A DNA stretch of 64,000 nucleotides from contig NZ_CP107811.1 of NCBI RefSeq assembly GCF_036346105.1, positions 3,848,501 through 3,912,500 on the forward strand, written 5' to 3'. The DNA is from Streptomyces sp. NBC_00539 (GTDB lineage: Bacteria > Actinomycetota > Actinomycetes > Streptomycetales > Streptomycetaceae). Shown here piece after piece: positions 25,109 to 41,093 of this stretch. Both the position numbers and the translations under genes were made by a program. A model generated the notes under the pieces. The model had not been told where the DNA came from, did no database searches, and saw only the letters and a program-made list of their open reading frames with translations. Every line of letters starts with the position of its first letter. Position 1 is the first letter of the stretch.

Positions 25109-25138
25109 GCGTGCCCAATGCGTGCCCATCGCGTGCCC
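25109..25138. repeat. Three GCGTGCCC repeats at 11-bp period (arm-type sites?)
   Basis: GCGTGCCC occurs at 25109, 25120 and 25131. The 11-bp period places copies on one DNA face, about 120 bp left of the att core. Similar copies at the same period flank the other att repeat at 41143 and 41154. This looks like arm-type binding sites of the prophage integrase. Confidence 0.55.
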
Positions 25139-25258: not shown

Positions 25259-25301
25259 CTCGTAATGCGTAGGTCTCGGGTTCGAATCCCGAAGGCGGCT
25301 C
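25259..25301 (+). repeat. att core: tRNA-Thr(CGT) 3' half, left copy
   Basis: A 43-bp sequence identical to 41009-41051. It contains the anticodon loop CTCGTAA, a T-arm (TCGGG/CCCGA stem around TTCGAAT) and the acceptor end AGGCGGCT. Upstream sequence is not a tRNA 5' half, so this is a displaced att copy. It is the junction between the prophage on the left and the AICE on the right. Confidence 0.85.
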
Positions 25302-25306
25302 TGTAG

Positions 25307-25350
25307 AACCCCCAGGACTCACTCGCCGTGACCTGGGGGTTTTGCTTTTT
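25307..25350. terminator. tRNA/int terminator within att region
   Basis: 10-bp stem (25307-25316 with 25332-25341), 15-nt loop, then a T-rich tract. The central 29 bp recur at 41060 onward, so the element carries the tRNA terminator as well as the tRNA 3' end. It lies right behind the convergent int stop. Confidence 0.75.
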
Positions 25351-26734
25351 ACCGGATCTTGCGGCGGCGTCGTGCCCGGGCCGCTCGTGTGCTCTCGGTC
25401 TCAGTCCTGGTCTCAGAGGGCGGATTGGGGCCCGGCATGAACGCCTCGCCCATGCGGCGCATCGCCTCCCGCGAGAGTTCCGATCGGCCCTTGACGTAGC
25501 GCCGGGTCTGGCTGATCTGGGTGTGCCGGAGGATCTCCATGATCGTGGGCATGTCCACGCCCAACTCGTTGAGGATCGTGCCGGCCGTGTGGCGGCTCCC
25601 GTCATGCTGGCGGCGGTCGCTGATCCCGGCTTCCTCAAGCAGCTCCTTGAACTCCTCCCAGTCGGCCCGCGGGTCGAGCGGCCGGCCGTCGGGCCGGGTG
25701 AAGACGGCGCCACACTCCTCCCAGAGGTCTCCGGCGGCCTGCCGGTGCTCGTCCTGCTTCGCCTTGTGCTCCAGGAGGTACGGCAGGAAGGGCGGGGGGA
25801 TCGGGACGGGGTTCTGGCTCTTCTTCGTCTTGGGCCGGGTGAAGGCAAGTCCCCCGCCCTTCCGCTCCGGGCAGGTGCTGGCGTGCCGACGGCAGATCTT
25901 GGGGCAGGGCTGTGGACAGCCGCGCTTGTAGCTCTTGTGGGCCGCGCAGTCGGCCGGGCACGGGTCGAACCGGTGCAGCCGGGCCCCGCAGGCGTGCGCG
26001 TCCTTGCAACCGTGCCTCCAGGTGAGGCGCTGGAGCTGCCACGCAGGGTGGAACAACCCCTGCTCCAGGTCGACATAGGGCCAGCGAAGGCCTAGAGCCT
26101 CGCCCTGCCGGAAGCCCATGCCGACCCCGATGGCCCACCGCATGAACGTCGGGCGTTTGGCGGCGGCCGCCAGAAACGCCTTCGACTCCTCACGCGAGAA
26201 CGGGTTCGCCTCCGTCTCGTCCACGGAAGGCGGGTCCACGAGGGTGGCCACGTTCTCGCTGATGATCCGGCGGCGGTGGGCGATTTTCAGGGCGCGGGAG
26301 AGGATCCGGTGCACCTTGACCACGTGCGAAGGTGCGTGCCCCTCCTCCAACATGGCCGCGTACATCACCTCCAGGTGTTCCGGCGCGAGCTTGTCCAGGC
26401 GGTGCTTCCCGACGCCCGGGATGATGTCGTTGCGGGTCTTCGACCAGTAGTCGTCCAGGGACCGCGGCTTGAGTTTCAAGCTCGCGATCGTGGTCAGGTA
26501 CGTGTCCATCCACTCCGCGACGGTCGGCTTTCGCCCGGCCTTCGTGGCGCGGCCCTCGTCGCGCAGCTTCTCCAGCTCGCGGACCTTCTTGGTGACCGCG
26601 GTCTCGGTCTTGGCCCGGCGGTGCCGGCGGTCGGGGCCGCCGTCGGGCTTCACGCCCATCGTGACGCGGCCGTGCCACCACCCGTCACTGCCCAGGTAGA
26701 TGGACGACTCCATGTTCGGCCTACGGGGACTCAT
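25349..26734 (-). CDS. int: AICE tyrosine integrase with cysteine-rich insert
   Basis: Protein of 461 residues. ATG at 26734 has GGAGGAG; an earlier ATG at 26746 lies inside that site. An N-terminal arm-binding region (1-65) is followed by a core-binding domain (KPTVAEWMDTYLTTIASLKL) and the catalytic domain: R209 (GFRQGEALGLRW), H377/R381 (HDGSRHTAGTIL), H404 (ILRHTQISQTRRY) and Y413. Between the first catalytic Arg and the rest, residues 243-288 contain eight Cys plus His, probably zinc sites. The stop lies 48 bp from the att core, the usual place for an AICE integrase. It should recombine attP with the tRNA-Thr 3' end. Confidence 0.93.
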   Translation of the reverse strand: MSPRRPNMESSIYLGSDGWWHGRVTMGVKPDGGPDRRHRRAKTETAVTKKVRELEKLRDEGRATKAGRKPTVAEWMDTYLTTIASLKLKPRSLDDYWSKTRNDIIPGVGKHRLDKLAPEHLEVMYAAMLEEGHAPSHVVKVHRILSRALKIAHRRRIISENVATLVDPPSVDETEANPFSREESKAFLAAAAKRPTFMRWAIGVGMGFRQGEALGLRWPYVDLEQGLFHPAWQLQRLTWRHGCKDAHACGARLHRFDPCPADCAAHKSYKRGCPQPCPKICRRHASTCPERKGGGLAFTRPKTKKSQNPVPIPPPFLPYLLEHKAKQDEHRQAAGDLWEECGAVFTRPDGRPLDPRADWEEFKELLEEAGISDRRQHDGSRHTAGTILNELGVDMPTIMEILRHTQISQTRRYVKGRSELSREAMRRMGEAFMPGPNPPSETRTETESTRAARARRRRKIR

Positions 26735-26751
26735 GCGCTCCTCCATACGGA

Positions 26752-26782
26752 AGGCGGCCCCGGGGACTTCCCGGGGCCGCCT
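26752..26782 (-). terminator. Hairpin between xis and int
   Basis: Perfect 13-bp arms 26752-26764 and 26770-26782, 5-nt loop. It lies 17 bp below the xis stop and 18 bp above the int start, with no T-tract. It could lower int expression relative to xis, or protect the mRNA. Confidence 0.55.
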
Positions 26783-26799
26783 GCGGTTGTGGCTTGAGA

Positions 26800-27000
26800 T
26801 CAGACGGACTGGGGCTGGAGCTGGGCGGCGAACGCGTCGATGTCGGTCCGGCGGATACGGCGAGCGCGGCCGACCTTGACGAAGGGCAACTCGCCGCCGG
26901 CCATCAGCTCGTAGATGGTGGAGCGGCCGAGCGAGAGCAACTCGGCCGCCAACTCGACCGTGCAGAGGACGGGGGCGACGGAAATGGCTGCGGTGCTCAT
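26800..27000 (-). CDS. xis: Excisionase (MerR/HTH_17 type)
   Basis: Protein of 66 residues: VLCTVELAAELLSLGRSTIY then ELMAGGELPFVKVGRARRIR, the standard excisionase winged-helix motif ending in a positively charged strand. In AICEs such proteins bend the att arms to favour excision. It is directly upstream of int on the same strand. Its start is followed upstream by a 9-bp repeat array. Confidence 0.9.
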   Translation of the reverse strand: MSTAAISVAPVLCTVELAAELLSLGRSTIYELMAGGELPFVKVGRARRIRRTDIDAFAAQLQPQSV

Positions 27001-27052
27001 CGAAGTGCCTCCACGGCGATCGGATTTCGGGGCTCTGCCCCGTCTGCAGAAA

Positions 27053-27268
27053 TCCGCTACTGCCGCTACCTCCGCTACCGCCCTGGTCAGGGGCTTGTTC
27101 GTGGTAGCGGATTGGGTAGCGGTAGCGGATAGATGCGCGACCGGCCCGGCCGTTGGGGGCCGGGCCGGTAGCGGGTGTGACTGGTGGGGTAGCGGATGTT
27201 TTCGGGCTATCCGCTACCTCCGCAGGGGGTGTGACCTGCGGGGTAGCGGAGGTAGCGGAGGTAGCGGA
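27053..27268. repeat. GGTAGCGGA iteron-like array (about 12 copies)
   Basis: A 9-bp unit GGTAGCGGA (or TCCGCTACC) is repeated. Three reverse copies at a 9-bp period lie at 27053, 27062 and 27071 (the outer two imperfect). Three perfect forward copies at 27242, 27251 and 27260 mirror them. Scattered copies at 27103, 27115, 27121, 27167, 27188 and 27210 lie between. The region holds no gene. It is placed between the replication genes and xis, so it may be the element's origin, or binding sites of a regulator or of TraB. Confidence 0.8.
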
Positions 27269-27271
27269 TTC

Positions 27272-28411
27272 TCAGGGGGTGGGGGGAGGGCAGTACCTCG
27301 CCCAGGCGTCGACGAGGTCGGCCGCGTAGTAGCCCTTGAGGACCGTGGAGCCGGTCTTGATGTTGCGGGGCTCGATCGGCTTGTTGTCTCCGGTCATGTA
27401 CTCGCCGAGCATCTTCGCCAGACCCCGGGAGGTCAGCGGCTTGCCGCCCATGTCCGCCCAGGGCGCCTCTTCCAGCGCGTAGAGGCGGTCCAGTACGGCG
27501 ACGGTGGGCAGTCGCTCGATGCCTTCGAAGACGTGGTCTCGAAGGTCGGTGAGCAGGCGGATGCCGATGCTGCCCTTGTCGTCCTGCTTCGACGCGGCCA
27601 CGATCTCGGCGCACGCGGAGCGGGCGCGGGCCGGCCAGTCGCCTCCGGCGGCGTCCGCGACGGCGATGAGGGGCTCCCACACGTCCGCAGGCCGGTCGGT
27701 GACCTCTTCCGGCATGTCCGGGAACACTCCATCGACCAGGTGCCGGACACTGTCGGCCCAGACGGCGAGCCGGTCTCGCAGGGCATGGCCTTCGGGGGCG
27801 TGCAGGCGCCGGCGGAACGGCTGGACGCGTTCGTTGCGGGCTCGGCGGCGCATCCGGATGATGACCGACCGGGTCAGGATCGTGTCCGGCAGCGAGCCGA
27901 GTCCGGCCATGGCCACCACGCAGAAGCTGGGGAACTCCTGGACGGTCTGGTTGGTGCCGTCTCCGACGCACCGCCACATGCCGGCGCCCCGGTGGTGCCC
28001 CGCGTTCAGAAACCCGCGCAGCGGTTCGTTGTCCCCCGCCTTCGGGCCGAAGATCGTGTCGACCTCGTCAAAGAGGATCGTGGGCCGGGTCTCCAGGGTG
28101 GAGACGGCCCGGAAGAGAACCGGCGCGGACGCGTTCGCGGCCACCAGCGGCTGTGGGACCAGCGTTTCCACGATCTCCAGCGCGCGGGACTTCCCGGAGC
28201 CGGGTTCCGGGGAGAGGAACGCGAGGCGAGGGGTGGAGTCGAAGCAGTCCAGCAGGTGCGCGTGCGCGTCCCACAACGTGACGGCAACGTAGGCGGCTTC
28301 GGTGGGGAAGACATTGAACCGCCGGTGGAAAGCCTCCACCTCGTCCAGCAGCACGGAGCCGTCGGTGGCGGCCTGGATGGGTGCGGGCATGGTCTGGGTG
28401 TCGAGGGTCAT
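27272..28411 (-). CDS. DUF3631-type P-loop ATPase (AICE replication)
   Basis: Protein of 379 residues; ATG 28411 has GGAGGAAGG. The N-terminal half is an ATPase: SPEPGSGKSRALE (Walker A), TILFDEVDTIFG (Walker B), later LTRSVIIRMRRRARNERVQ, as in the DUF3631 family of AAA-like helicases. The C-terminal half carries the DUF3631 fold (WEPLIAVADAAGGDWPARAR; KPLTSRGLAKMLGEYMTGDN). It follows the Prim-Pol gene with one small gene between, and together they form the likely replication module of the element. Confidence 0.88.
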   Translation of the reverse strand: MTLDTQTMPAPIQAATDGSVLLDEVEAFHRRFNVFPTEAAYVAVTLWDAHAHLLDCFDSTPRLAFLSPEPGSGKSRALEIVETLVPQPLVAANASAPVLFRAVSTLETRPTILFDEVDTIFGPKAGDNEPLRGFLNAGHHRGAGMWRCVGDGTNQTVQEFPSFCVVAMAGLGSLPDTILTRSVIIRMRRRARNERVQPFRRRLHAPEGHALRDRLAVWADSVRHLVDGVFPDMPEEVTDRPADVWEPLIAVADAAGGDWPARARSACAEIVAASKQDDKGSIGIRLLTDLRDHVFEGIERLPTVAVLDRLYALEEAPWADMGGKPLTSRGLAKMLGEYMTGDNKPIEPRNIKTGSTVLKGYYAADLVDAWARYCPPPTP

Positions 28412-28764
28412 GCGGCCTTCCTCCGGTCGGCGGAGACGCGGCCCAGCGGGCACACGGTGCGGTGGTCGGTGTGGAGCTGGATGAGGGCGAGCACGTTGTT
28501 GTGTCCGACAGCGCTGCGGTCATGGCCGCACTCGCACTTCGAGTGAGCGGTCGGCACCGCACCGCGCGGGGCGCAGATGCGGAGGACGGCGACGATGTAG
28601 CGGCCGTCCGCCGGGTGCGGGTCAGGGAGAAGAGATGAAGGGACGCCTTCGGCGACGACCTTCGGCGCGCCACTGCCGTCTGCGGCTGGGGCCGGTTCGG
28701 CGGAGCCGGGGCCGGTGGGGGGTGCGGGGAGGCTCTTCAAGGAGGAACGGGGGCACTGGTTCAT
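28408..28764 (-). CDS. Small zinc-ribbon protein in replication operon
   Basis: Protein of 118 residues, MNQCPRSSLKSLPAPPTGPG onward. Pro-rich N-terminus, then ICAPRG ... HSKCECGHDRSAVG and a C-terminal HTDHRTVCPLGR. The CxC and neighbouring Cys suggest zinc binding. The ATG overlaps the Prim-Pol stop and its own stop overlaps the DUF3631 start by 4 bp, so the three genes are co-translated. Role unknown. Confidence 0.62.
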   Translation of the reverse strand: MNQCPRSSLKSLPAPPTGPGSAEPAPAADGSGAPKVVAEGVPSSLLPDPHPADGRYIVAVLRICAPRGAVPTAHSKCECGHDRSAVGHNNVLALIQLHTDHRTVCPLGRVSADRRKAA

Positions 28765-29663
28765 GCCGTCCGCCTCATCGCGTTGCGGGCGATGGACCAG
28801 TTCAGACCGGAGCGGATCGTGTTGCGGCACTCGGAAGACGGCAGGCCGGCCGACTCCCCCGCCCATTGAAGAGCCTCCTCCACCACATCGCGGGGGAGGT
28901 CGCCCGCGGCGATGAACCGGCCCAGAGCGCGGGCGGCCCGCAGCAGCGTTCCGTTGCGCTCCCCGGCTGGGGCCGATTCCACCGATGCCGTCTCGGCGTT
29001 CAGGGCGGCGGTCGCGTACTTGCCTGTCCGGAGTGTGGCGGGGCGTCCGGTCAGCTTGCGCAGGGCCTGCTTGGGTGCCAGCAGCCCGTAGAGCCAGGTG
29101 GGGAACGGCTCCGGGGCCGCCGGGTGGGTGACCTCGTACACCCCGGCAGGTGTGACGCTGCCGGGGGCGACGACGTACCCGCCCCACGCCCGGGTGTCGA
29201 TCAGCCTGCCCAGACGGCCCGCCGTGTTGCCCAGCCGTACCCCGGCCGGAGCGGTGAAGTACAGGTGGGACCCGCCGGTGGGAGTCCCTACCGAGAGCGT
29301 TGTCGGGGCGGCCTGCCCGGCGCGCTCGCAGAGCGCCTTGAAGGTGTCCGCGCCGTAAGGCGCGTCCGAACTGCCTTTGCTCTTCGGCACGTCCAGGTCC
29401 ACGACCACGAGGTTGGACGGGCCCGTCGCGATGCCGACGTTGAAGGGGAGCCGGTCCCACGCGCGGCGGATCCGGTCCGGGTCGCTGGTGGCCCGGTCCT
29501 CCCATTTGCGGTGCCCGCCGGCGCAGTCACCCAGGGCGGGGCAGTGCTCTTCACCGTGGAGGGCGGGGCGCTTCTGTCCGGGGCGGAGCGGGAACACGCT
29601 CCAGCCGAGGGCAGCGGCATCGAGCGCGGCTGTCAGCAGCGCGGATGCGGGTTGATGGGTCAT
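28761..29663 (-). CDS. Bifunctional DNA primase/polymerase (Prim-Pol)
   Basis: Protein of 300 residues; ATG 29663 with GGAGGA. Prim-Pol motifs are present: ALGWSVFPLRPGQKRPAL at the N-terminus, the catalytic D-x-D in NLVVVDLDVPKSKG, GGSHLYF (S-x-H), and DTRAWGGYVVAPGS. A helical C-terminal domain follows (LPRDVVEEALQWAGESAGLP). AICEs are known to use either RepSA/RepAM rolling-circle-type initiators or Prim-Pol proteins; this is the latter. It is followed by a zinc protein and DUF3631 helicase in one operon. Confidence 0.92.
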   Translation of the reverse strand: MTHQPASALLTAALDAAALGWSVFPLRPGQKRPALHGEEHCPALGDCAGGHRKWEDRATSDPDRIRRAWDRLPFNVGIATGPSNLVVVDLDVPKSKGSSDAPYGADTFKALCERAGQAAPTTLSVGTPTGGSHLYFTAPAGVRLGNTAGRLGRLIDTRAWGGYVVAPGSVTPAGVYEVTHPAAPEPFPTWLYGLLAPKQALRKLTGRPATLRTGKYATAALNAETASVESAPAGERNGTLLRAARALGRFIAAGDLPRDVVEEALQWAGESAGLPSSECRNTIRSGLNWSIARNAMRRTA

Positions 29664-29736
29664 GCTGGATTCCTCCAGTGGTAGCTGGAAGAGGGCGGCC
29701 CCGGTCATTGGCGTGAGGGGGCCGCTCTCGGCGTTT

Positions 29737-30015
29737 CTAGAACGGGGGCTCGTCGCTGTAGGCGCCGGCCTGAGGCTGGGGACTGGTGCCGCGCCAGCTC
29801 AGGCGGCGCGGGAGCGGGAGAAGGACCCATCGGCGGGTCTCCTCCCAGCACGGGCAGGGGTCCCACTCGGTGCCCGCGTACTCGCCGGTGGAGTAGTCGC
29901 CGTAGTCGCGGTTGTGACCGCCAATCCCCTGACAGTCAGGGCAGTCGGGCCGGGGCGTGTCGGTCAGGACCAGGGCCAGCCGCGGCCAGTTGCTGCGATG
30001 GATGCGGAGTCGCAT
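29737..30015 (-). CDS. Small Cys-rich AICE protein
   Basis: Protein of 92 residues: MRLRIHRSNWPRLALVLTDT then CPDCQGIGGHNRDYGDY and DPCPCW. The CPDCQG and CPC pairs resemble a DnaJ-like zinc knuckle. Short proteins of this kind are conserved in Streptomyces AICEs between rep and tra genes. Function unknown. Confidence 0.62.
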   Translation of the reverse strand: MRLRIHRSNWPRLALVLTDTPRPDCPDCQGIGGHNRDYGDYSTGEYAGTEWDPCPCWEETRRWVLLPLPRRLSWRGTSPQPQAGAYSDEPPF

Positions 30016-30035
30016 GGTTCTCCTCCTTGTGCCGG

Positions 30036-30215
30036 TCAGTGCCGGGTGTGGTCGGTGGCGAGGTCGGTCAGGCGTTTGGCCTCGTCGGGGGTGACGGCGC
30101 GGTAGCGGACGCTGACGCGGCAGCCCGGGTGGGGGCAGCGGATGGTGTGCTTGCCGGTGAGCAGGGCGACCGCGTCGGAGATCAGTTCCGACAGCGGGGC
30201 CGGGTCCTGGTTCAT
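30036..30215 (-). CDS. Small zinc-binding protein
   Basis: Protein of 59 residues (MNQDPAPLSELISDAVALLT), then IRCPHPGCRVSVRYRAVTPD and a terminal His-rich DHTRH. CPHPGC with the C-terminal His residues may bind zinc. It starts 11 bp after the stop of the membrane protein gene above. No family named. Confidence 0.58.
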   Translation of the reverse strand: MNQDPAPLSELISDAVALLTGKHTIRCPHPGCRVSVRYRAVTPDEAKRLTDLATDHTRH

Positions 30216-30226
30216 GGGGTGGCCTT

Positions 30227-30712
30227 TCAGCGCTGGTTGAGGGTGCCGGTGGCGCGGCCGAACAGTCCGGAGGCGGTGATGTTCTGGGTGACGTGCTGGA
30301 CCGGCGCGGTTCCCCGTCCGGCTCCGCGGGTGGTGCGGAGGAGGAGCGGGGCGAGGGTGCCGGCGGCGATGAGGGCGATGGCGGCCCAGAGGGCGTCGGT
30401 GATGGCGGTCAGTCCCGGGGCGGCGTAGGAGATCCCGAACCCGGCGGCGGCGATGCCGCCGCCGACGGTCGGGGCGAGGAGCGCGGTCGTCTTGGCCCAC
30501 GCGGGGATTGGCTGGGCGGCCGGCGCGGCCGGGGGCGGGGTGGGGTGGTTGTAGGCGAGGGTGCGGTAGCCGTTGGGGAGGGTGACCATCTCGACCCCCG
30601 GCGGGAGTTCCGCAAGCGGCATCGCGGGCTGCTGGATCGTGGTGGGGTGGTAGATGGGGTCGCCGTAGCGGGCGGGCGGGGTGGTGCTCGCGGTCGTGGG
30701 CTCATAGGGCAT
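30227..30712 (-). CDS. Membrane protein (spread/transfer-associated)
   Basis: Protein of 161 residues. A Pro/Thr-rich, probably disordered N-terminus (1-75) is followed by two hydrophobic helices (about 78-96 and 105-125; TTALLAPTVGGGIAAAGFGI, LWAAIALIAAGTLAPLLLRT) and a polar tail. It lies downstream of TraB beyond a hairpin. Proteins of this shape are typical of the spread (Spd) gene set that spreads the element between mycelial compartments. That role is inferred. Confidence 0.62.
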   Translation of the reverse strand: MPYEPTTASTTPPARYGDPIYHPTTIQQPAMPLAELPPGVEMVTLPNGYRTLAYNHPTPPPAAPAAQPIPAWAKTTALLAPTVGGGIAAAGFGISYAAPGLTAITDALWAAIALIAAGTLAPLLLRTTRGAGRGTAPVQHVTQNITASGLFGRATGTLNQR

Positions 30713-30732
30713 TGCAGGCTCCTGGACGCGGT

Positions 30733-30765
30733 GCGGGCGGCCCCGTTGGTGGTGGGGCCGCCCGC
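30733..30765 (-). terminator. 12-bp hairpin downstream of traB
   Basis: Arms 30733-30744 and 30754-30765 with a 9-nt loop. It lies beyond the repeat array at 30794-30920 and before the next gene start at 30712, so it probably ends the traB transcript. Confidence 0.6.
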
Positions 30766-30793
30766 GTGGGTGGTCGCTCTGCGTGTGTGCGGC

Positions 30794-30920
30794 TACTGCC
30801 TACTGCCTACTGCCAACCCGGTACTGCCTACTGCCAAAACGGCTGGTGAAGGTGCCTGGTGGGCAGTAGGAGGCCCGTATCGGGGGTTACTGCCAATTTG
30901 GCGGTAGGCAGTAGGCGGTA
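30794..30920. repeat. TACTGCC heptamer array, clt candidate
   Basis: TACTGCC is repeated at 30794, 30801, 30808, then 30822 and 30829, all in phase with a 7-bp period. Another copy is at 30888, and reverse copies GGCAGTA are at 30862 and 30907. GGCGGTA variants flank the last one at 30900 and 30914, again 7 bp apart. The stretch holds no gene and starts 16 bp after the traB stop. Conjugative loci of Streptomyces plasmids (clt) with short direct repeats bound by TraB lie in this position. Confidence 0.78.
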
Positions 30921-30935
30921 GCGGTGTGTGGCCGT

Positions 30936-33005
30936 TCAGGCGTGATCGGGGTGGACGTAGACGGAGTGCGGGCCCCGGTCGCGGTAGTGGAGTTCGCCGC
31001 GTTCGGCGGCGGCCTTGAGGGTCTTGCGGACGGCTTCGCGGCTGCGGCCGACGAGGTCGGCGACGGCGGCGGGCTTCATGCCCTCGGCGCCGGCCGCGCG
31101 GATCGCGGTGATCGCGTCCGGGAGCCAGGAGGGCCCGGCTTCCTTGTCGTCGCGGAGCGCGGACAGGTTCAGCCCCGACGGCTCGGCCTTCGGCTCCTCC
31201 GGAGTGTCGGGGGTCTGGGGCTGGGGGCTGGTGGTGAATTCGATGCCGATGAGCCGCTCGAACTCGGCGTCGACCGCATCCGGTGCCGGGGCGGCCGGGG
31301 TGGGGTCGCTGCGGAGCGCGGAGAGGTTCAGGCCCGACCCGCCCGCCGACGTCTGGGACTCGACGGGCGGGGTGGTGTGGTGCTCGGTGATCCAGGCGGT
31401 GCGATTCTGGTCCCAGCGGCGGGCGTAGTCGGGGCCTGCGGCTTTCGCGGAGACTGGGTCGAGGCGGGGGTGTCGGTCGGAGGTGGCGATGACAATGTCG
31501 CGGATCTGGGCGGGCTTGATCCGCCAGGACTTGAACAACCCGATCCCGGATTCGGGGGTGCCGAGGAAACCGGCGCCCTTGTAGGGGGCTTGGTCGACCT
31601 TGAGTCCCCGGGAGCCGGGGAACAGCTTGGACAGGTCCATGCCCTCGGTCTCTCCGCCGGTCAGGGCGGCGCGGACCTTGGCTTCACGGCGGATCATCAG
31701 GTCGCCGAGGACGGCGCCAGTCGCGCCGAGGGCGGTCAGGACGGTGCGCAGGGCCATGGCGCGGGCGATGCGGATGACTTCCAGGATCTTCCGGGCGAGG
31801 ACCCGGTGCTGCTTGTCAGTGGAGGCGAGGATTTCGGCGCCTTCATCGATGACGATTTCGATCTGCGGAATCTCGTGACTGACTGGAAGGAGGTCGGTGT
31901 TCGCCTTGGACATGAGGTCCTGGTAGGCCATCTTGCGGTGCTTGGCCACCCGGATCGCGGTGTCCAGCATGAGGAGGGCTTCCTCGTGGGTGGAGGCGAG
32001 CCAGTCGATGCCCGGCCGTACCGCTTGTCCGCCAGTGTTCTCGGTGCGGACCCAGGGCAGGCCGGCCGATCCGGCGTTGAGGTCGATGACCCAGGTGACG
32101 ACATCGGTGCAGCGGGCGAACCCGGCAAGGATCGTGTGGACCATGTTGGTCTTGCCCGATCCGGTGGGGCCGACGACGAGGGCGCACTGCTCGCGCAGGA
32201 ACACCGGAACCTCGTCGGCGTTCGTGCGCACGCCCCAGGGGATGCCGGTCAGGACCGACAGCGGCCCGTAATTCGACGGGTAGGGCATCTCCTGTTCCAG
32301 GACGTTGACGGTGGTCACGTCGATGAGGACGCGGCCTTGGTGGATGCCGCGGGAGGCGGTGGCGGTGCAGCCGTGCGGCAGCCGGGCGTCGGCGGACAGA
32401 CGCGCGGACTCGGTGGCGATCTTGGCGTAGGTGATGCCGCCGGGCGGGAGTTCGGCGTCGATGGTGAACCCGGCGCCGGTCGGCCACATCTCGACCGCCA
32501 GAACGCGAACGGTGATGTGGCAGACCCGCTCGATGCGGTCGACCCATTCGGCGGCGATCTCCCGCCGCTCCGCCGAGAGTTCCCGGGCCACCTGCCGTTC
32601 GGCCGCCGCGAGCGCTTCCAGCTCGCGGGCCTCCTCGTAGAAGCCGACGGAGCGGGCGGCGGCGCCCATGCCGACCCCGATCACCGCGAGAGAACCTAGG
32701 GCGGTCCAGGTCAGCGGGTTGGTGGCGAGCGCCCAGGTGGTCCAGCCGGACCCGAGGAGCCAGGAAGCGGCCCGGGCGCCGATGGTGCGGCCGGCCAGCT
32801 TCTGGCGGAGACCGGTGGCGGTGTGGCCGATCGTGCCGACCGTACCGACCGCGAGCGCCCAGGTGGGCGGCATGTGGGCGAGGGTGCCGACGGTGGCGAC
32901 GGCGAACGCGCCGGTCGTCGCGGACAGGGCCCCGGTCACCGGTCCGTGTCCCGCGGCCCAGTCCAAGGCCAAACCCTCGTGCTTGATGGCGGAAGTGGTG
33001 GTCAT
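30936..33005 (-). CDS. traB: TraB/FtsK-like conjugal DNA translocase
   Basis: Protein of 689 residues; ATG 33005 overlaps the upstream stop. N-terminal hydrophobic segments at about 32-60 and 95-115 anchor it to the membrane. The motor domain has Walker A GPTGSGKT (279-286) and Walker B IEIVIDEGAEI (382-392). The linker holds two copies of GLNLSALR, and the C-terminus (about 625-689) is a winged helix (GMKPAAVADLVGRSREAVRK). TraB alone mediates double-stranded DNA transfer in mycelial streptomycetes by pumping DNA through septal pores, with the winged helix reading short repeats in clt. The repeat array lies just after this gene. Confidence 0.94.
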   Translation of the reverse strand: MTTTSAIKHEGLALDWAAGHGPVTGALSATTGAFAVATVGTLAHMPPTWALAVGTVGTIGHTATGLRQKLAGRTIGARAASWLLGSGWTTWALATNPLTWTALGSLAVIGVGMGAAARSVGFYEEARELEALAAAERQVARELSAERREIAAEWVDRIERVCHITVRVLAVEMWPTGAGFTIDAELPPGGITYAKIATESARLSADARLPHGCTATASRGIHQGRVLIDVTTVNVLEQEMPYPSNYGPLSVLTGIPWGVRTNADEVPVFLREQCALVVGPTGSGKTNMVHTILAGFARCTDVVTWVIDLNAGSAGLPWVRTENTGGQAVRPGIDWLASTHEEALLMLDTAIRVAKHRKMAYQDLMSKANTDLLPVSHEIPQIEIVIDEGAEILASTDKQHRVLARKILEVIRIARAMALRTVLTALGATGAVLGDLMIRREAKVRAALTGGETEGMDLSKLFPGSRGLKVDQAPYKGAGFLGTPESGIGLFKSWRIKPAQIRDIVIATSDRHPRLDPVSAKAAGPDYARRWDQNRTAWITEHHTTPPVESQTSAGGSGLNLSALRSDPTPAAPAPDAVDAEFERLIGIEFTTSPQPQTPDTPEEPKAEPSGLNLSALRDDKEAGPSWLPDAITAIRAAGAEGMKPAAVADLVGRSREAVRKTLKAAAERGELHYRDRGPHSVYVHPDHA

Positions 33006-34618: not shown

Positions 34619-34697
34619 GCTGAACGTGCTCCTTCACGGGAGAAGAGGGCCCGGCCGTCGCTGTAGGAGGCTTGCGGTCGGGCCCTTGCTGAGTGGT

Positions 34698-35036
34698 TCA
34701 GGCGACGCGCTGTTCATCGGGGTAGGCGCAGGGGACGCACATGCCGAGCGAGGCCGGGATGACGTATCCGGCATCGGTGCGGCACTGGGGGCAGGTGCGG
34801 CGTGCCGCGTTCGCCTTGGCGAGGGCCGCGGCTTTCCGCGCGGTCATCGGCCGGACCGGCTTGGCGCGCTCCACGAGGTAGAGGTAGGCGACCAGCGGGC
34901 CCCGCCGGTAGCGGGGCCGTTCCACCTGCGCGGCGACGTCCTGTCCGCCGGGCCGGAGCCCTTGGGCGCGGAGTTGTCGGCGGGTGGCCAAGCCGACCGG
35001 GGCGAGGCGCCAGGAGTAGACGGGCAGCGTGCTCAT
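34698..35036 (-). CDS. RRQRL-motif-type zinc-binding protein
   Basis: Protein of 112 residues from ATG 35036. PVYSWRLAPVGLATRRQLRA contains the RRQ(R)L motif; the C-terminus has RTCPQCRTDAGYV and MCVPCAY, a zinc ribbon. This family is small and widespread in Streptomyces integrative elements. Start overlaps the stop of the next gene on the same strand. Confidence 0.75.
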   Translation of the reverse strand: MSTLPVYSWRLAPVGLATRRQLRAQGLRPGGQDVAAQVERPRYRRGPLVAYLYLVERAKPVRPMTARKAAALAKANAARRTCPQCRTDAGYVIPASLGMCVPCAYPDEQRVA

Positions 35037-35269
35037 CAGCCGAGGCGGTGGTAGGCGGCCCGGCAGGCGGCGGCGTGCTCGTTCGCCGTGCGGCGGGTGA
35101 AGAGCAGGTTGTCGAGCATCTCGGAGCGGTCGCCGCAGCCGTGGCAACGCCAGCCCGAGCCGTGGTAAGCCAGGGTGCCGATCACGTCGACGGCCGCGCC
35201 GACCTGGTTGTGCATCTGGATCAGCAGGTTGTCCGGCTCGGCGGGCGTGGTCTGGGGGGAGAGCTTCAC
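35036..35269 (-). CDS. Small zinc-finger AICE protein
   Basis: Protein of 77 residues: MKLSPQTTPAEPDNLLIQMH, then GWRCHGCGDRSEML and a His-containing helix (TANEHAAACRAAYHRLG). The CxxC...H...C set suggests one zinc finger. Coupled to both neighbours by 1-4 bp overlaps. Conserved in AICEs; role unknown. Confidence 0.66.
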   Translation of the reverse strand: MKLSPQTTPAEPDNLLIQMHNQVGAAVDVIGTLAYHGSGWRCHGCGDRSEMLDNLLFTRRTANEHAAACRAAYHRLG

Positions 35270-36270
35270 GAGGTGGCTCCTTCCAGGGCGGGGGCGGTCT
35301 TCGCGTCGCGCAGTTCCTGGTAGCGGGCGGAGACCCAGCCCACGGACCAGCCGGTCAGTTCCGCGGCGACCCGAACGGGGAGTCCGGCGTGGAACGCGGC
35401 GCCGACGGTGGCGAGGGCCGGTTCCTCGTCGAGCTTCTTTTCCGGCGGTCCGGCGGACAGCAGTGCGGCGCGTTCACGCTCGATGCGTTCCTGTTCACGG
35501 AGCCGTTCACGGCGTTCACGCTCGGCCCGCTGCTGGGCCTCCAGTTCGCGCTGCTGCGCGGCCTGGCATTCAAGGCGTTCACGCTCGGCCCGGGCCTGTT
35601 CACGCTCGTGTTCACGGCGTTCACGGGCCTCGCGCTCCGCACGCTCGGCCGCCTCCGCTCGCTCCTGTGCTTCGCGGCGGATGCGGTCCTGTCGTTCGGC
35701 TTCCTCACGGATCAGGCGGGCCTCGTGTTCACGCTGTTCACGGGCGATGGCCGCCTCGTGCTCGCGGCGTTCACGGGCCCGCATTTCGCGGGCGTCCTCC
35801 CGGTCCTGGACCGCCTTCGCCCGGGCTTCCGCCTTGGCGTGCTGCTCGGCTTCCAGAGACCGGACGGCGGCGGTCAGGGCCCGCCGGTAGGCGAGGCCAG
35901 CCTCCGCCGTGACGATCAGCAGGAGCGGCGCGACGGAATGGATAGCGACCCCGACCAGGTCCCCGACCAGGGCGGACGCCCCGATGTTGAGGGCGAGGGT
36001 CATGGCACCGGTCATCCAACGCAGGGCCACCGGCCACGTACCGCCGTGCCCGCCGAGACGGGCCAGGACGGAGTCGAGGCGGACCACGATGACCACGGCC
36101 GCATCCACCACGAGCGGCAGGATCGGTGCCGTCCACCGCCATGCGCCGGGGGTGTGTGCGGCCATCAGCGGGGTGACGGTGAGGACGGAGTAGAGCATGG
36201 CCCCGCCCACGATCAGCCACGTGCCCACGGCCAGCGCGCGTTCCGCTGAACGCAGGTGAACGCTGTTCAT
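35266..36270 (-). CDS. DUF2637 membrane protein (spread-type)
   Basis: Protein of 334 residues. Four hydrophobic helices in the first 130 residues (GTWLIVGGAMLYSVLTV; APILPLVVDAAVVIVVRL; TGAMTLALNIGASALVGD; VAPLLLIVTAEAGLAYRR) match DUF2637. A long charged coiled coil (about 140-290, Glu/Arg/Ala rich) follows, and the C-terminus holds an HTH-like segment AAELTGWSVGWVSARYQELR. Such proteins occur in the transfer cluster of Streptomyces plasmids and AICEs (SpdB-like). The coiled coil could contact TraB or septal material. Confidence 0.82.
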   Translation of the reverse strand: MNSVHLRSAERALAVGTWLIVGGAMLYSVLTVTPLMAAHTPGAWRWTAPILPLVVDAAVVIVVRLDSVLARLGGHGGTWPVALRWMTGAMTLALNIGASALVGDLVGVAIHSVAPLLLIVTAEAGLAYRRALTAAVRSLEAEQHAKAEARAKAVQDREDAREMRARERREHEAAIAREQREHEARLIREEAERQDRIRREAQERAEAAERAEREARERREHEREQARAERERLECQAAQQRELEAQQRAERERRERLREQERIERERAALLSAGPPEKKLDEEPALATVGAAFHAGLPVRVAAELTGWSVGWVSARYQELRDAKTAPALEGATS

Positions 36271-36593
36271 GGCGCCCCCTGCGTCAGAGGCTGGACCTTG
36301 ACCGTGCCCAGGAGGAGGACCCGTACAGGGTGGGGGTGGTAGTCCGGACCGGTGCCCTCCATCCACTCCCACTCGGCGTCCTCAGCGAGCGTGAACCCCA
36401 GTTCCATCAGGGCCGCAAGGCGCTGGTGAACGCTCGGGATCTCGGTGGACGTCGGCCACGTGAAGGTGGGCCACTCGCTGACCAGACCGGTCATGGCCAC
36501 GAACACCTGCCAGCACGGGCCGGGCGTCCGCTCCGGTGTGGTGGTGCCGCAGCAGCGCAGCGACAACTGCGCTCCGAAGATCTGCTTGCTCAT
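36267..36593 (-). CDS. DUF6303-type small protein
   Basis: Protein of 108 residues, MSKQIFGAQLSLRCCGTTTP onward. WQVFVAMTGLVSEWPTFTWP and RLAALMELGFTLAEDAEWEW recall the DUF6303 family found in Streptomyces transfer regions. Overlaps its neighbours by 4 bp at both ends. Function unknown. Confidence 0.65.
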   Translation of the reverse strand: MSKQIFGAQLSLRCCGTTTPERTPGPCWQVFVAMTGLVSEWPTFTWPTSTEIPSVHQRLAALMELGFTLAEDAEWEWMEGTGPDYHPHPVRVLLLGTVKVQPLTQGAP

Positions 36594-36859
36594 GCCGCGT
36601 CCCCCGACACCGTCGCGCCGGCGGTGCGGTTGGCCATGTCCCGCCGGGCCGCCAGGACCCGGTTCCGGGTCCGCCGGATGCGGCGGGCGTCGAGCTCGGA
36701 CGCGGGGCGGTCCAGCAGCGCGATCAGAGCGTCCAGCAACTCGACCTCGGCCAGGACCACGGGCATCTCGGTCTCGATCGCGTCCAGCTCCGCGTCCGAC
36801 GGCTCCAGACCGTCGGACCACGGGGTAACAACGTCGTGAAGTGCAGCGATGGGCTTCAT
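36590..36859 (-). CDS. DUF6284-type small protein, first gene of transfer operon
   Basis: Protein of 89 residues: MKPIAALHDVVTPWSDGLEP then ELDAIETEMPVVLAEVELLD and ARRIRRTRNRVLAARRDMAN. Helical with an acidic first half and basic second half, as in DUF6284 proteins. It is the promoter-proximal gene of the long minus-strand operon, and a 13-bp hairpin lies in its leader. Confidence 0.68.
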   Translation of the reverse strand: MKPIAALHDVVTPWSDGLEPSDAELDAIETEMPVVLAEVELLDALIALLDRPASELDARRIRRTRNRVLAARRDMANRTAGATVSGDAA

Positions 36860-36893
36860 GGGTCTTGCTCCTTCTACAGAGGAACGGGACTCA

Positions 36894-36925
36894 GCAGCCC
36901 CCGGCGCGGGAACGCCGGGGGCTGC
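36894..36925 (-). terminator. Leader hairpin of transfer operon
   Basis: 13-bp perfect stem (36894-36906 with 36913-36925), 6-nt loop, 35 bp above the start at 36859. It could attenuate transcription into the transfer genes or be a stability element. Confidence 0.5.
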
Positions 36926-37220
36926 ACTGCGATGGGGGTGAAGCAGGAAGAACTACTCCGGCTCCCCTCGACCCCGCCCGTACAGCGCGGAAGCGCTGGA
37001 CGGGCGGAGGAGGCAACCGGCCGCCAACCGATCGAGCGGCGGAGAGGTTGGGTGGCGCTGATCCGTACGCGGGGACAGGACCCGTGTACGCCGCCCTCTT
37101 AGAGGGGGGCGGATGCCTCGATCCACTGTTGAGTTCTCAAATCCCAACCGCTTCCTTTGAGCCGTCACCGGCTCTCCGGGCGCCGAGAACAGCCCAAAGA
37201 GGGCCCCTCTCCGGTCCGCT

Positions 37221-37292
37221 GTCCTAGGACTGCGGACTTCTGTGGATGACTATGGACTCGCAGTCCCAGGACTGTCAACAGTCCTGGGACTG
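37221..37292. promoter_or_regulatory. GntR (KorSA-like) operators, three sites
   Basis: Three copies of GTCCNNGGAC: GTCCTAGGAC (37221-37230), GTCCCAGGAC (37263-37272) and GTCCTGGGAC (37281-37290). The last two lie within a larger inverted repeat with perfect 15-bp arms (37261-37275 and 37278-37292). The region of 36860-37323 is the divergent promoter spacer between the transfer operon and the GntR gene and holds no gene. The regulator probably represses its own gene and the transfer operon. Confidence 0.78.
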
Positions 37293-37323
37293 TGTTTCAC
37301 TGGCTGCGTCGAAAGGAGTTCCC

Positions 37324-38112
37324 GTGGCGCCGAAGTGGCGAGAGCTGGCGGACAAGCTGGCCGAGCGCATCCGAAGTGGCGAATACGCCCCTGGCCAGCA
37401 GCTTCCGCACATCCGGGACCTGGTGGACGCGGGCGAGGGCTCCAAGTCCACGGTTCACGCGGCGTACAAGGCGCTGGAAGCTGAGGGCCTGGTGACGTCC
37501 TCGCGCGGGCATGGCACGGTCGTGCGCGAGCGAGCGCCGCTGAAACGGCTCGGCATCGCTCGGTATGACAAGGCGAAGTGGCGTGACGGGGACGAGGTCG
37601 CGTTCATTGCCGACCGCGTCGCGTCCGGCCGTGCGTACAAGCGAGGTGAACAGACGCAGAGCGTCAGCCGGGTGCCGGCGCCTCCGCTGGTGGCCGCGGC
37701 GCACGGACTTCCTGAGGGTGCCGAGGTGTACGCGCGAGCGAGGCTCGTGAAGGAAGGCGACCAGCCGACCCACACGCTGACCAGCTACTACCGGCCTGAG
37801 CACGTAGAGGGAACGCGCATCGTCGACCCGACGCCGGGCCCCGCCGGCCGTGGCGGCGGATTCCGCGTGCTCTACGACGCGGGCTACGAGATTGACCACA
37901 TGCGTGAGGAGCTGTTTGCCAGGGCCGCAACGTCTGAGGAGGCGGCCCTCCTGCAGTTGGCGCCTACTGAATGGGTCGTTGAACTGCATCGGACGACGTA
38001 CACGGTGGACGGCACCGTCGTCGAGTTCGCCGTCGGCCTGCACGCGGCTACTCGGTTCGCCTGGGCGTACGACTTCCAGGTCCCCGATTCGGCACGGAAG
38101 GCAAGACCATGA
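37324..38112 (+). CDS. GntR family regulator (KorSA-like)
   Basis: Protein of 262 residues; GTG at 37324 with AAAGGAG at 5 nt. Winged helix at about 5-75 (RELADKLAERIRSGEYAPGQ, STVHAAYKALEAEGLVTSSR) and a C-terminal UTRA-type ligand domain. In pSAM2 a GntR protein (KorSA) keeps the element integrated by repressing the activator of rep/xis/int. The three palindromes directly upstream fit autoregulation. The next gene overlaps its stop by 4 bp. Confidence 0.88.
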   Translation: MAPKWRELADKLAERIRSGEYAPGQQLPHIRDLVDAGEGSKSTVHAAYKALEAEGLVTSSRGHGTVVRERAPLKRLGIARYDKAKWRDGDEVAFIADRVASGRAYKRGEQTQSVSRVPAPPLVAAAHGLPEGAEVYARARLVKEGDQPTHTLTSYYRPEHVEGTRIVDPTPGPAGRGGGFRVLYDAGYEIDHMREELFARAATSEEAALLQLAPTEWVVELHRTTYTVDGTVVEFAVGLHAATRFAWAYDFQVPDSARKARP

Positions 38113-38762
38113 TCTCTGCGCAGAATTGGGCCGATGCTGAACGGCTCTGGGACTTCCAGCAGATGCACCACGAGCCGCGACCTTGCTCAGTAGCCATCGG
38201 GCTCGGGAGCCACGACCTGGGCGTCGCTGACTTCACAGTTGACCTCTACAGGCGCGGCATGATGCCGCTGATCGTCTTCACCGGTGCCACGAGCCGGACG
38301 ACCCGCGAGCGGATGCCCCGCGGGGAGGCGGAGCACTACCGTGATCGGGCGCTGGAACTAGGTGTCCCCGCCTCCGCCATCCTCGTGGAGCCAGCAGCGC
38401 GGAACACGGGCGAGAACATCCGCCTCTCCCGATCGCTGCTTGCAGACGAGGGTGTGCGCGTCGATTCGGCCCTACTGGTCAGCAAGCCGTACGAGGAGCG
38501 GCGCGCCTATGCGACAGCCCGCAAGCTCTGGCCAGAGGTGGAGATCATCAGTGCGTCCGCGCCGATGACGCTTGCGGAGTATGTGGACTCGATCCAGGAC
38601 TCCCGGCTGGTCTTCGACATGCTCGTCGGTGCCCAACAGCGGCTTCTCCTCTACCCGCAGCTGGGGTTCCTGATTCATCAGGACATTCCCCCGGCTGTTT
38701 CTACGGCCTACGAGCGCCTCTGTTCTGAGGGTTTCACCAGCCGCCTCCTAGCCGGTCAATGA
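38109..38762 (+). CDS. YdcF family (DUF218) protein
   Basis: Protein of 217 residues with ATGA overlap to the regulator. SVAIGLGSHDLGVADFTVDL, IVFTGATSRTTRERMPRGEA and ILVEPAARNTGENIRLSRSL are the DUF218/YdcF signature, a Rossmann-like fold. The exact reaction is unknown. YdcF-type genes often sit after KorSA-like regulators in AICEs, perhaps as a nucleotide-handling accessory. Confidence 0.85.
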   Translation: MISAQNWADAERLWDFQQMHHEPRPCSVAIGLGSHDLGVADFTVDLYRRGMMPLIVFTGATSRTTRERMPRGEAEHYRDRALELGVPASAILVEPAARNTGENIRLSRSLLADEGVRVDSALLVSKPYEERRAYATARKLWPEVEIISASAPMTLAEYVDSIQDSRLVFDMLVGAQQRLLLYPQLGFLIHQDIPPAVSTAYERLCSEGFTSRLLAGQ

Positions 38763-39299
38763 ATGAAGTCCCGAGCGGTGATGCAACCGACGACATTTGA
38801 TGTCGGTTGGTCTCACGTCTCGAATGAGGTGTGATGGGGTGACAGGCGGCGCCAGAGGCCGACTTTCGGCAGGGGCCCAACCAACACCGGAATGACGTAG
38901 CGCCGTATGACGGTGCTGGCGACCGTGGCGAGGCTCCCATCCCGCCCGCTTCGACCCCGGGCAAGCCGAGCAGGCCTGGAAGCCAGGGTCAACGTGGTTA
39001 TAGATGGGAGGCGGTCCTGAGTAGCCGTGTGATCGCCAGCTCGTGTGGTTGACGCCTGGCACCGGCGGTGTTGCACACCACCAGCTCCCACGCACCGGTC
39101 TGCTGTCACCCACTTCCTGACGAGTCGGAGTGGATACGCCTCCACTGCACCAGCCAACTCGGCGGATGTGCATAGGAAGTCCGACTAGAGGTGCAAAGTG
39201 TGCCACTCAGTGCCAAGCTGAGAGATGAAGGCGGGGGCAGCAAGCCTCTTTCCCTCGATCCTTACCCAGGACACACCTCGCCGCGGTGGAGGTAGCCAC
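38763..39299. other. 537-bp gap without a supported gene
   Basis: No reading frame here has a ribosome site and protein-like content on either strand. A minus-strand frame at about 38813-39157 is open but has no start context. It probably holds the promoter of the TPR gene and decayed DNA at the cargo end of the element. Confidence 0.5.
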
Positions 39300-40502
39300 A
39301 TGGCCGCCGATTTCATAGCTGCGCAAGGAAGTTCGACGAACTGGGCGCTTGTCGGTCCTCTCATTGGCGCCGCAGTGGCAGCGATAGGCCTCTTTTTTGC
39401 GGAACGGCACCGAAAAACAGAGACGGTGCAAACCGTGGTTGATCGGGCAGTTGATGCGAGAATCGGGCAAGTATTTCGCGAATTCAACGAGTATGAGTCT
39501 TCTGCCAGAGCTGCCTTGGAAGGCGCCCAGGGAATGGAGCGACAGCTGCAGCAACAGCTTGAGGCGTCGGAGTCGCTTGCAAACAGGTTGGGAGATCTCC
39601 TTGGGTCCGGCGATGAGGCTGTCTCGACCCTAGAGAGTTCCAAGGCGATGATTCCGGCGCTATTGTTGGAGAACGCGAGAAGTGCCGAGATTCCGGTGGC
39701 GCTTGGCCACCTTTCATCCCTCGCAAACTCTCCGATTGCTGCATCGGATGAATTTGAACGAGGAGGTGATATGGCCGGCAGACTCCAGAGCTATGAACTT
39801 GCCCTAAGGCTGTATGAGAGGGCAGTCGAGGTAACCCCTCAAAATGCTACAGCCAGAGCGTCCCTGATCCGCATGCGCGTGCGCCTCGGGAAGGTTGCTG
39901 TAGCGGACGCGGTTGTAGAACTAGCAGAGCTGACACTGGCGAACCCAAACAATCGCCTCGTCCTCATGGAAGCGTGTAATACCTGCAAGGATTTTGATGA
40001 CTATGAGTCACTCAGAATCCTTTGCGAAAAGATGCTGAAGGTAGCCCCAAAAAATTCGGTGGCTTGGAGGAATCTTGCGATTGCGCTAGAAAATCTGGAC
40101 TCTTCGACCGAAGCAGTGGAGAATGCTTACGAAAATGCGTTCCAGTTCATCAAGGTAGGATTTGATGAGACCAGTGACATAGCGAACGCCGCCAAAGCGT
40201 ACGTTAACTTCCTTAAAGCTCAAAAGAAATTTGACAAGGCGCATGAGATTTTAAAGCGAGGCCTTGAGGCTGACCCCGGATCGGAGATACTTCTGATATT
40301 GCGCGGCGATCTTGAGGTGGCGAGTAATGGCGATATGAAGCTTGCTACGTGGTGCTACCGTGAAGTGGTCAACAGAAAGAATCCGAGCACCCTGCAGCTG
40401 GCAGCATCGAAACTGGAAGAATTGGCTAAGCGTGCAGACTTGCAGAAAGTGGGAATAATTTCGGGGGCAACTGCCGAAAAGCCATCTTGGATGAAATTCT
40501 GA
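39300..40502 (+). CDS. Membrane-anchored TPR protein, low-GC cargo
   Basis: Protein of 400 residues; ATG at 39300 with GGAGG at 7 nt. One N-terminal membrane helix (about 14-32: NWALVGPLIGAAVAAIGLFF), then a coiled coil (EYESSARAALEGAQGMERQL) and five or so TPR-like units (YELALRLYERAVEVTPQNAT; MLKVAPKNSVAWRNLAIALE; AHEILKRGLEADPGSEILLI). Base composition and codon use (many A/T third positions) differ sharply from the neighbours, so it was acquired separately. No enzyme domain is seen. Placement at the right end of the AICE, next to att, is where cargo genes accumulate. Confidence 0.78.
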   Translation: MAADFIAAQGSSTNWALVGPLIGAAVAAIGLFFAERHRKTETVQTVVDRAVDARIGQVFREFNEYESSARAALEGAQGMERQLQQQLEASESLANRLGDLLGSGDEAVSTLESSKAMIPALLLENARSAEIPVALGHLSSLANSPIAASDEFERGGDMAGRLQSYELALRLYERAVEVTPQNATARASLIRMRVRLGKVAVADAVVELAELTLANPNNRLVLMEACNTCKDFDDYESLRILCEKMLKVAPKNSVAWRNLAIALENLDSSTEAVENAYENAFQFIKVGFDETSDIANAAKAYVNFLKAQKKFDKAHEILKRGLEADPGSEILLILRGDLEVASNGDMKLATWCYREVVNRKNPSTLQLAASKLEELAKRADLQKVGIISGATAEKPSWMKF

Positions 40503-41008
40503 CGGGCTGGTCTATTCCGCTTGCGCGGTGCCTGTCTGCGGGGCCAGACATATCGTCTCAGGGTGAATGTACTTCGGGAAAAGGGCGTGTCCGGCAGGCA
40601 CGTTGAGCCCTCCCGCAGTCAGGCGCGTGATGCATGAATGAAGCCGTAGCGCTCGTCGCGGTCCTACAGCATCCAGTGCGCACGAACGCCGCCTCGTGCC
40701 GGGGGATGTGACGATGCCTGCCGGTCAAGGAGCACCCCGGGCATGACGGATGGGCTGGCGACGGACGGAGCTGAGGAGGACCTGGGCAGTTCCTGCCCGT
40801 TCGGCCAATGGCCACATTGGGCTAGGTTCGTATACGCGATCTTCCAAGATGCTGCAGAGCAGCCAGCGACCGGTCTCAGTTGTGGGCTCTTTCAGCGCTG
40901 GATCCGGCGAGGTGCGCGGGTGTCCTCCGACGTCCGGCTCTAGGTGCGAGCAGGGGTGTGACGCCCGCGGGGAACGTCGGTGGAGGCTAGTGGACCAAGA
41001 TCGGACAA
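40503..41008. other. 506-bp gap without a supported gene
   Basis: No convincing reading frame. A 66-codon plus-strand frame from 40743 lacks a ribosome site and has unlikely composition. It forms the right end of the AICE up to the att repeat. Confidence 0.5.
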
Positions 41009-41051
41009 CTCGTAATGCGTAGGTCTCGGGTTCGAATCCCGAAGGCGGCTC
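41009..41051 (+). repeat. att core: tRNA-Thr(CGT) 3' half, right copy
   Basis: Identical over 43 bp to 25259-25301. Again no tRNA 5' half precedes it. It marks the right end of the AICE (15.75 kb between the repeat starts). Confidence 0.85.
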
Positions 41052-41056
41052 GGATT

Positions 41057-41093
41057 AGCCCCAGGACTCACTCGCCGTGACCTGGGGCTTTTT
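41057..41093. terminator. tRNA-type terminator after right att
   Basis: 9-bp stem (41057-41065 with 41081-41089) and a T-run to 41093. The central 29 bp equal the copy behind the left att. Confidence 0.72.

Follow-up and report, generated by a model that had tools for sequence, protein, structure and literature searches.

A siphovirus-like prophage and an actinomycete integrative and conjugative element (AICE) lie in tandem in the genome of Streptomyces sp. NBC_00539, bounded by three identical copies of a 43-bp core belonging to the 3′ half of a tRNA-Thr(CGT) gene. We analyzed a 64,000-nucleotide stretch of this genome (hereafter the window; C1:3848501-3912500, on a contig of 7.07 Mb) together with the DNA on its left, and we conclude, with a probability of about 0.92, that the two elements, which encode different tyrosine integrases and use a common core, were brought together by tandem accretion in the 3′ half of that tRNA gene. 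The three cores are direct repeats, the first of them completes the tRNA, and an integrase gene stands beside the left core of each element. A first-pass annotation of the window had proposed that two unrelated mobile elements occupy one attachment (att) site in tandem, and this is borne out by a siphovirus-like gene block next to a 15.75-kb AICE with its gene triad.

The AICE is bounded by exact 43-bp direct repeats at window positions 25259-25301 (att2, plus strand) and 41009-41051 (att3, plus strand), spaced 15,750 bp apart and just where the first-pass annotation had placed them. The window contains no further exact copy, direct or inverted; ARAGORN found no tRNA gene in it, and neither repeat completes one. 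A search of the whole genome allowing up to 3 mismatches returned three matches to the core, all exact and all on one strand, and none for the reversed control pattern. A chance repeat is ruled out by an exact 43-bp core, present in three copies in 7.5 Mb, and a control count of zero. The third copy (att1; C1:3836191-3836233) forms the 3′ portion of a tRNA-Thr(CGT) gene that ARAGORN recognizes as complete (C1:3836159-3836233; L001:1469-1543), in which the core runs from the anticodon loop to the tRNA 3′ end. This intact gene, at the left end of the prophage and 12.3 kb to the left of window base 1, had been predicted to lie beyond the left edge, as had a second integrase near that end, and a different tyrosine integrase gene does directly adjoin the tRNA (C1:3836277-3837974, minus strand). 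The three cores bound blocks of 37,568 bp (att1-att2) and 15,750 bp (att2-att3), with att2 forming both the prophage right end and the AICE left end, as first proposed, and att3 the AICE right end. The prophage had been placed at 1-25258, which correctly sets it between the tRNA and the AICE; its start is not base 1, the left 12.3 kb with the integrase falling outside the window.

Each of the three cores is followed by a near-identical tRNA-terminator hairpin (z −3.7, −5.0, and −4.6), at L001:1544-1590 behind the tRNA-borne core, at 25302-25345 (plus strand) at the AICE left end, and at 41052-41092 (plus strand) behind att3, which indicates that the duplicated unit is about 85 bp long. It seems that elements at this site supply the host tRNA with a terminator that they carry themselves. 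On the other side of the core, GGACCAAGATCGGACAA stands just before att3; among 9 other AICE right ends, 4 have it in identical form and 5 in similar form. Downstream of the core, elements of other genomes differ from one another in sequence but retain an inverted repeat that looks similar by eye.

Genes were called with a custom script, which gave 41 in the prophage (24 scanned against the library) and 18 in the AICE (14 scanned). The right two thirds of the 37.57-kb prophage occupy window positions 1-25258 (minus strand), and PHROGs matches across the prophage comprise tail fiber, minor tail, tape measure, major tail, major head, scaffold-like, minor head, portal, terminase large subunit, and replication initiation proteins; an endolysin gene lies just left of the window. 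The integrase, a tyrosine recombinase of 565 amino acids (aa), is the first gene beside the tRNA and matches PF00589 (E 2.9e-19) and phrog_1. As an att-bounded block with terminase, portal, head, tape measure, tail, endolysin, and integrase genes, it is classed by gene content as a temperate siphovirus-like prophage. Viral contigs yielded 76 relatives of its major head protein, with identity up to 90%. Streptomyces phages Raleigh and Darolandstone and their relatives encode portal proteins 55-60% identical to that of the prophage over 98-99% of the length, and their genomes measure 37.8-40.8 kb against 37.57 kb for the prophage (both ranges from 12 listed of 88 matches). The best phage match of the integrase among those listed is instead TurkishDelight (46.9%), not the portal-related Raleigh and Darolandstone. 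Between the integrase and the lysis genes, left of the window (L005:3585-6180), the prophage encodes a NUDIX protein, a thymidylate-kinase-like protein, and a B12-binding radical SAM protein; this cargo has no match in relative G046, whose prophage is described below. Passages of Ghinet et al. (2011; PMC3218068) report that Pif, a NUDIX protein, limits redundant transfer in pSAM2, and for that reason a phage-borne NUDIX protein beside an AICE is of interest.

The AICE encodes integrase, HTH_17, DUF3631, Prim-Pol, FtsK/SpoIIIE-like, DUF6284, GntR-UTRA, DUF218, and TPR proteins. Its tyrosine integrase (454 aa; 25349-26713, minus strand; PF00589, E 4.2e-15) lies 47 bp from the att2 core and is 98% and 95% identical to its counterparts in genomes G134 and G071. 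Also on the minus strand are genes for an excisionase-like HTH_17 protein (26800-27000; PF12728, E 1.5e-14; phrog_66 excisionase, E 1.5e-8), a DUF3631 protein (27272-28411; PF12307, E 1.5e-62), a Prim-Pol replication protein (28761-29663; PF09250, E 2.1e-45), and a FtsK/SpoIIIE-like protein (30936-33005; phrog_31069, E 1.2e-97) that is the putative transfer protein. The FtsK assignment depends on the PHROGs model: the Pfam FtsK_SpoIIIE match fell below the cut-off (E 0.0095), and NCBIfam models gave no match. The protein is 45.6% identical over its full length to a Streptomycetaceae plasmid protein. A GntR/UTRA regulator (37324-38112, plus strand) has a counterpart with 93.5% identity in the G134 element. 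The search for AICEs described in parts of PMC3218068 relied on an integrase, a replication protein, and a FtsK-type protein, and in gene content this element has all three, with the integrase beside the att site, a Prim-Pol replication protein, and a FtsK/SpoIIIE-type protein. At its right end is a TPR-protein gene (39225-40502) with no PADLOC match and no match in the G134 element; positions 39001-41000 form the only 2-kb step of the window with a guanine-plus-cytosine content below 60% (57%). The gene is probably recent cargo.

The two integrases are 24.7% identical over 380 aa, and each element has short repeats of its own near both ends. Arm-type sites are known from lambda-type integrases, and we take GCGTGCCC, in the prophage, and GGTCTCAG, in the AICE, as putative sites of this type. 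GCGTGCCC occurs three times at +93/+104/+116 from att1, within the end of the prophage integrase gene itself, and three times at −150/−139/−128 from att2, as direct repeats with an 11-bp period (25109-25138, plus strand); in simulation, 0 of 3000 end pairs reached six copies of any 8-mer. GGTCTCAG occurs as a pair 12 bp apart at +95/+107 from att2 (25397-25416, plus strand) and as a distal arm-like site at −137 from att3 (40872-40879, plus strand), and this 8-mer has only these three occurrences in the 86.5 kb examined. We hand-picked eight distal ends of related AICEs for which both cores are known (their integrases share about 80% identity with the one here); seven have GGTCTCA at −137 or −138, and the eighth has a one-base variant of it at that position. 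When named genomes were scanned with the AICE integrase, 78 loci were kept, all from Streptomyces; the 32 with no core were left out, and in 42 of the 46 with a core, a GTCTCA pair exactly 12 bp apart follows it. The AICE repeat is absent from G188, which has a 55%-identical AICE relative. The prophage motif recurs in G392, at +91/+102 and −138/−127.

Assigning these repeats to the integrases has evidence against it as well. At its own locus alone the AICE repeat is weak (109 of 3000 simulations), and it is strengthened because relatives keep the motif at matching positions. The prophage repeat is absent from 6 of 7 relatives' distal ends (G303, G244, G279, G278, G183, and G003), G392 being the one that has it, and from 15 of 17 core-adjacent ends, its own end being one of the two where it is present; as a family-wide rule it was rejected. 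Paired repeats of its own around a common core would let each element excise alone.

In relatives the two kinds of element are found apart. In G046, 34 of the 41 called prophage genes have matches in the block that runs from the tRNA to the following core; the stretches searched (L099 and L100) gave no match to any of the 18 AICE genes. In G134, six of the 18 AICE genes have matches between its only two cores: the integrase (98%), Xis (97%), GntR, DUF218, DUF6284, and one more. Each kind of element therefore occupies the site without the other. The six genes, those of integration and regulation included, are 81-98% identical between the window (25349-38762) and the G134 element (L096), which has its own Prim-Pol (E 2.3e-9) and a FtsK-like protein (E 5.3e-4, below the cut-off) that do not match those of the window. 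On sequence comparison this is module swapping, the replication and transfer genes apparently exchanged for others of the same function class. The G134 element also encodes a restriction endonuclease (PF18062 and PF04471). In G046, the next core-bounded block (G046:C218, cores at 39910 and 49683) encodes type II Wadjet proteins JetA, JetB, JetC, and JetD (PADLOC, E 8.9e-87 to 0; L099:18037-19605 and L100:257-6538, with JetB cut by the stretch edge). No integrase of the two families was found beside its left core, and by its gene content the block is a predicted defense island within an att array.

Beyond att3 lies a trace of a further integrase. Positions 41093-41304 (minus strand; right edge uncertain, 41273-41308) hold the decayed C terminus of an integrase of the prophage family, which, in a tblastn search confined to 33 loci, aligned with a prophage-type integrase at 43.8% identity (73 aa, E 4.6e-8). 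At the DNA level the relic aligns with the left end of the prophage in this stack (81% identity across 90 bp) and with that of the G392 element (85.5% across 69 bp), and it contains two GCGTGCCC repeats, at 41143 and 41154, which is +91/+102 from att3. Judging from these similarities, att3 borders a scrap of an integrated element, and the relic is probably the remnant of a third, older element of the prophage integrase family. The first gene right of the stack (41325-42581, plus strand) encodes a PF00144 serine-hydrolase family protein and is probably a host gene. Right flanks were compared across 150 genomes, and in six relatives (G078, G038, G054, G134, G042, and G039) the DNA conserved with the PF00144 gene begins at query base 222-262 (window 41273-41313), at the far edge of the relic. 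A core lies 2.3 and 3.0 kb from the gene in G134 and G039, and no core was found within the 6-11 kb examined beside it in G054, G078, G042, and G038. Linkage of the PF00144 gene to the tRNA as a genus rule was rejected, since only these two of the six relatives have a core nearby.

The relic could also be an old flank common to other lineages, and not a third element of this stack. Its first 43 bases match the right flank of the single-copy genome L011 (83.7%, E 3.4e-7), its first 29 bases match DNA flanking the G392 element on its distal side (L110, E 0.002), and the right flank is variable, 2.3 and 3.0 kb of other DNA separating core and PF00144 gene in G134 and G039. We regard this account as somewhat unlikely: of 30 other-genome flanks, only L011 and L022, the latter with an intact integrase of the prophage type, gave clear matches to the relic, and the conserved DNA of the six relatives starts only at its far edge. 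Under either account the relic sequence would stem from an integrated element. As to the order in which the elements arrived, we took the best 30 loci for each integrase and set aside 13 and 10 that lacked a core within range; the remaining loci sit at the tRNA in 17 of 17 cases for the prophage type and 19 of 20 for the AICE type, the window being the exception, and the same holds for 43 of the 46 AICE-type loci with a core in named genomes. Because both integrase families are found at the tRNA-bearing copy in nearly all loci with a core, newcomers probably enter at the tRNA and push older elements outward. Hidden Markov models (HMMs) of both families were then applied to 81 cores in 24 arrays; 16 cores were scorable, most having no match, and att3 was left out of the scoring, its integrase tail lying beyond the HMM end and giving no HMM match. 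The ratio of full-length to broken integrases was 7:1 at the tRNA vs. 2:6 at other cores (p 0.04), and in a second, possibly overlapping set it was 32:11 at the tRNA vs. 0:3 elsewhere (p 0.024). This distribution makes it most likely that the AICE preceded the prophage, and it favors, on small numbers, the relic as the oldest member of the stack. Several points pull the other way. In the second set p becomes 0.073 once the intact inner AICE of the window is added, the arrival order rests on small numbers, and both integrase types, mostly broken, also occur at inner cores (G057, G333, G248, G278, G370, G104, and G183). The core at the prophage's right end is identical, moreover, so that the geometry permits the AICE to have entered there, after the prophage and at a copy with no tRNA 5′ half. 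That sequence of events appears unlikely, since the closest members of both families sit at the tRNA copy in nearly all loci with a core, pointing to the complete tRNA as the favored target.

In the accretion model that we favor, each element carries the tRNA 3′ half and terminator, and its insertion would keep the tRNA whole and leave a fresh full site. An element of the prophage integrase family would have entered earliest, surviving as an integrase tail and arm-like repeats past att3; the AICE would have entered at the tRNA, and the prophage would have inserted afterwards at the rebuilt tRNA, displacing the AICE outward. Since each element is equipped with repeats of its own close to both ends, three circles are expected: a 37.57-kb phage circle from att1 × att2, a 15.75-kb AICE circle from att2 × att3, and a joint 53.3-kb circle from att1 × att3. 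That excision of either element would leave the other, as the first-pass annotation had it, is what three direct repeats in this arrangement imply, and it agrees with the paired repeats. The three identical cores make att1 × att3 recombination possible, and one could suppose that prophage and AICE form a composite island that moves only jointly, as 53.3 kb, with att2 a dead leftover. We find this very improbable, given that att2 is exact and retains the repeats of both elements, that both integrases are full-length open frames, that each kind of element occurs without the other in relatives, and that 53.3 kb exceeds the 37.8-40.8 kb of phage genomes with a portal match (12 listed of 88). Repeats can mislead assemblers, but an assembly artifact joining two loci is scarcely credible on a 7.07-Mb contig when independent genomes repeat the prophage-tRNA junction (G046) and the AICE ends (G134), and when 25 of 30 loci from other genomes also carry, to the left of their core, the gene found left of the tRNA here. 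Under tandem accretion the prophage integrase could conceivably recombine att2 with att3 by way of the relic's repeats, cutting out the AICE. This is a doubtful proposal, prompted by the position of the relic repeats at the right distance (+91/+102) and by the three repeats on the near side of att2. If it were true, such cutting would leave a phage-type attP in the chromosome, and phage induction would also free the AICE, the sites of a dead element giving a virus control of an unrelated neighbor.

The tRNA-Thr(CGT) site is a genus-wide hotspot. The core was found in 346 of 393 genomes of the genus, once in 210, twice in 96, and three to seven times in 40, and thus at least twice in 136; these per-genome counts include copies on different contigs and were transcribed by hand, the total of 346 agreeing with the automatic tally. 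Defining an array as at least three cores that share a contig and strand and are separated by no more than 80 kb retained 23 of the 39 other genomes with at least three copies and dropped 16, giving, with the genome studied here, 24 arrays and 81 cores. The tRNA 5′ half, judged by a 6-base motif in our scripts (ARAGORN was used for L001 and L006-L035), is present at the first core in 18 of the 24 arrays and at none of the 57 later cores. Inside arrays, portal and terminase models match only in this genome (G000) and G046, the FtsK-like model matches only in this genome, and Prim-Pol was found in G000, G323, and G370 among the rows listed. Phage and AICE markers thus occur together in one array of 24, our own, a count limited to these marker models, which other phage or AICE families would escape. 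By these markers a prophage-AICE stack is the rarer form of tandem accretion, and it was found once. Broken integrases at the tRNA are common, as in single-copy genomes L009 and L006 and in 11 of 43 tRNA-adjacent loci; in 10 of those 11 the remaining pieces reach the C-terminal end beside the core. The reading made from the window was supported by all this and incomplete, having overlooked the integrase relic past att3, the elements' own paired repeats, and the hotspot nature of the site.

Tandem accretion has already been described for AICEs. Passages of Ghinet et al. (2011; PMC3218068) describe Fean5518/Fean5534, tandem AICEs in a Frankia tRNA-Lys gene for which independent and joint excision was demonstrated, and Sav3708/Sav3728, tandem AICEs in a Streptomyces avermitilis tRNA-Arg gene whose integrases are of different subfamilies. 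Like the stack described here, each pair places two integrative elements one after the other in a single tRNA gene; in those passages both members are AICEs, whereas here one is a prophage and a relic lies beyond. Accretion of AICEs, with one to three elements that have different integrases and identical repeats, plus a remnant, at a Streptomyces tRNA-Arg gene is described in sections of Choufa et al. (2022; PMC9513070), which also say that an AICE and an integrative and conjugative element (ICE) use the tRNA-Thr gene and propose that the integrase of one element can mobilize its tandem neighbor. That stack resembles ours in its different integrases between identical repeats and its remnant element, and differs in occupying tRNA-Arg and not tRNA-Thr and in that no prophage is named in the passages concerned. 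In the Dehalococcoides ssrA chains, as presented in parts of McMurdie et al. (2011; PMC3146451), many tandem islands lie behind one RNA gene, some without an integration module, and a place beside the gene is read as evidence of recent entry, a printed argument that our own reasoning on order parallels. Those islands use a serine recombinase and, in the parts concerned, are not thought to be self-conjugating, in contrast to the tyrosine integrases and the AICE of the present stack. No prophage-AICE tandem in one tRNA gene was found among the titles and abstract openings listed by our literature searches, in which subscription journals were thinly covered. To the known cases the present stack contributes the pairing of phage and AICE, the map of repeats, and the survey of the genus.

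In this stack one tRNA gene links a virus with a conjugative element, with the consequence that gain or loss of either would alter the surroundings of the other. The element-specific repeats predict which integrase can act on which core, and stacks of this kind may be readable as layers, with intact integrases at the tRNA and broken ones farther out. Across the genus, the tRNA-Thr(CGT) gene is a busy docking point.

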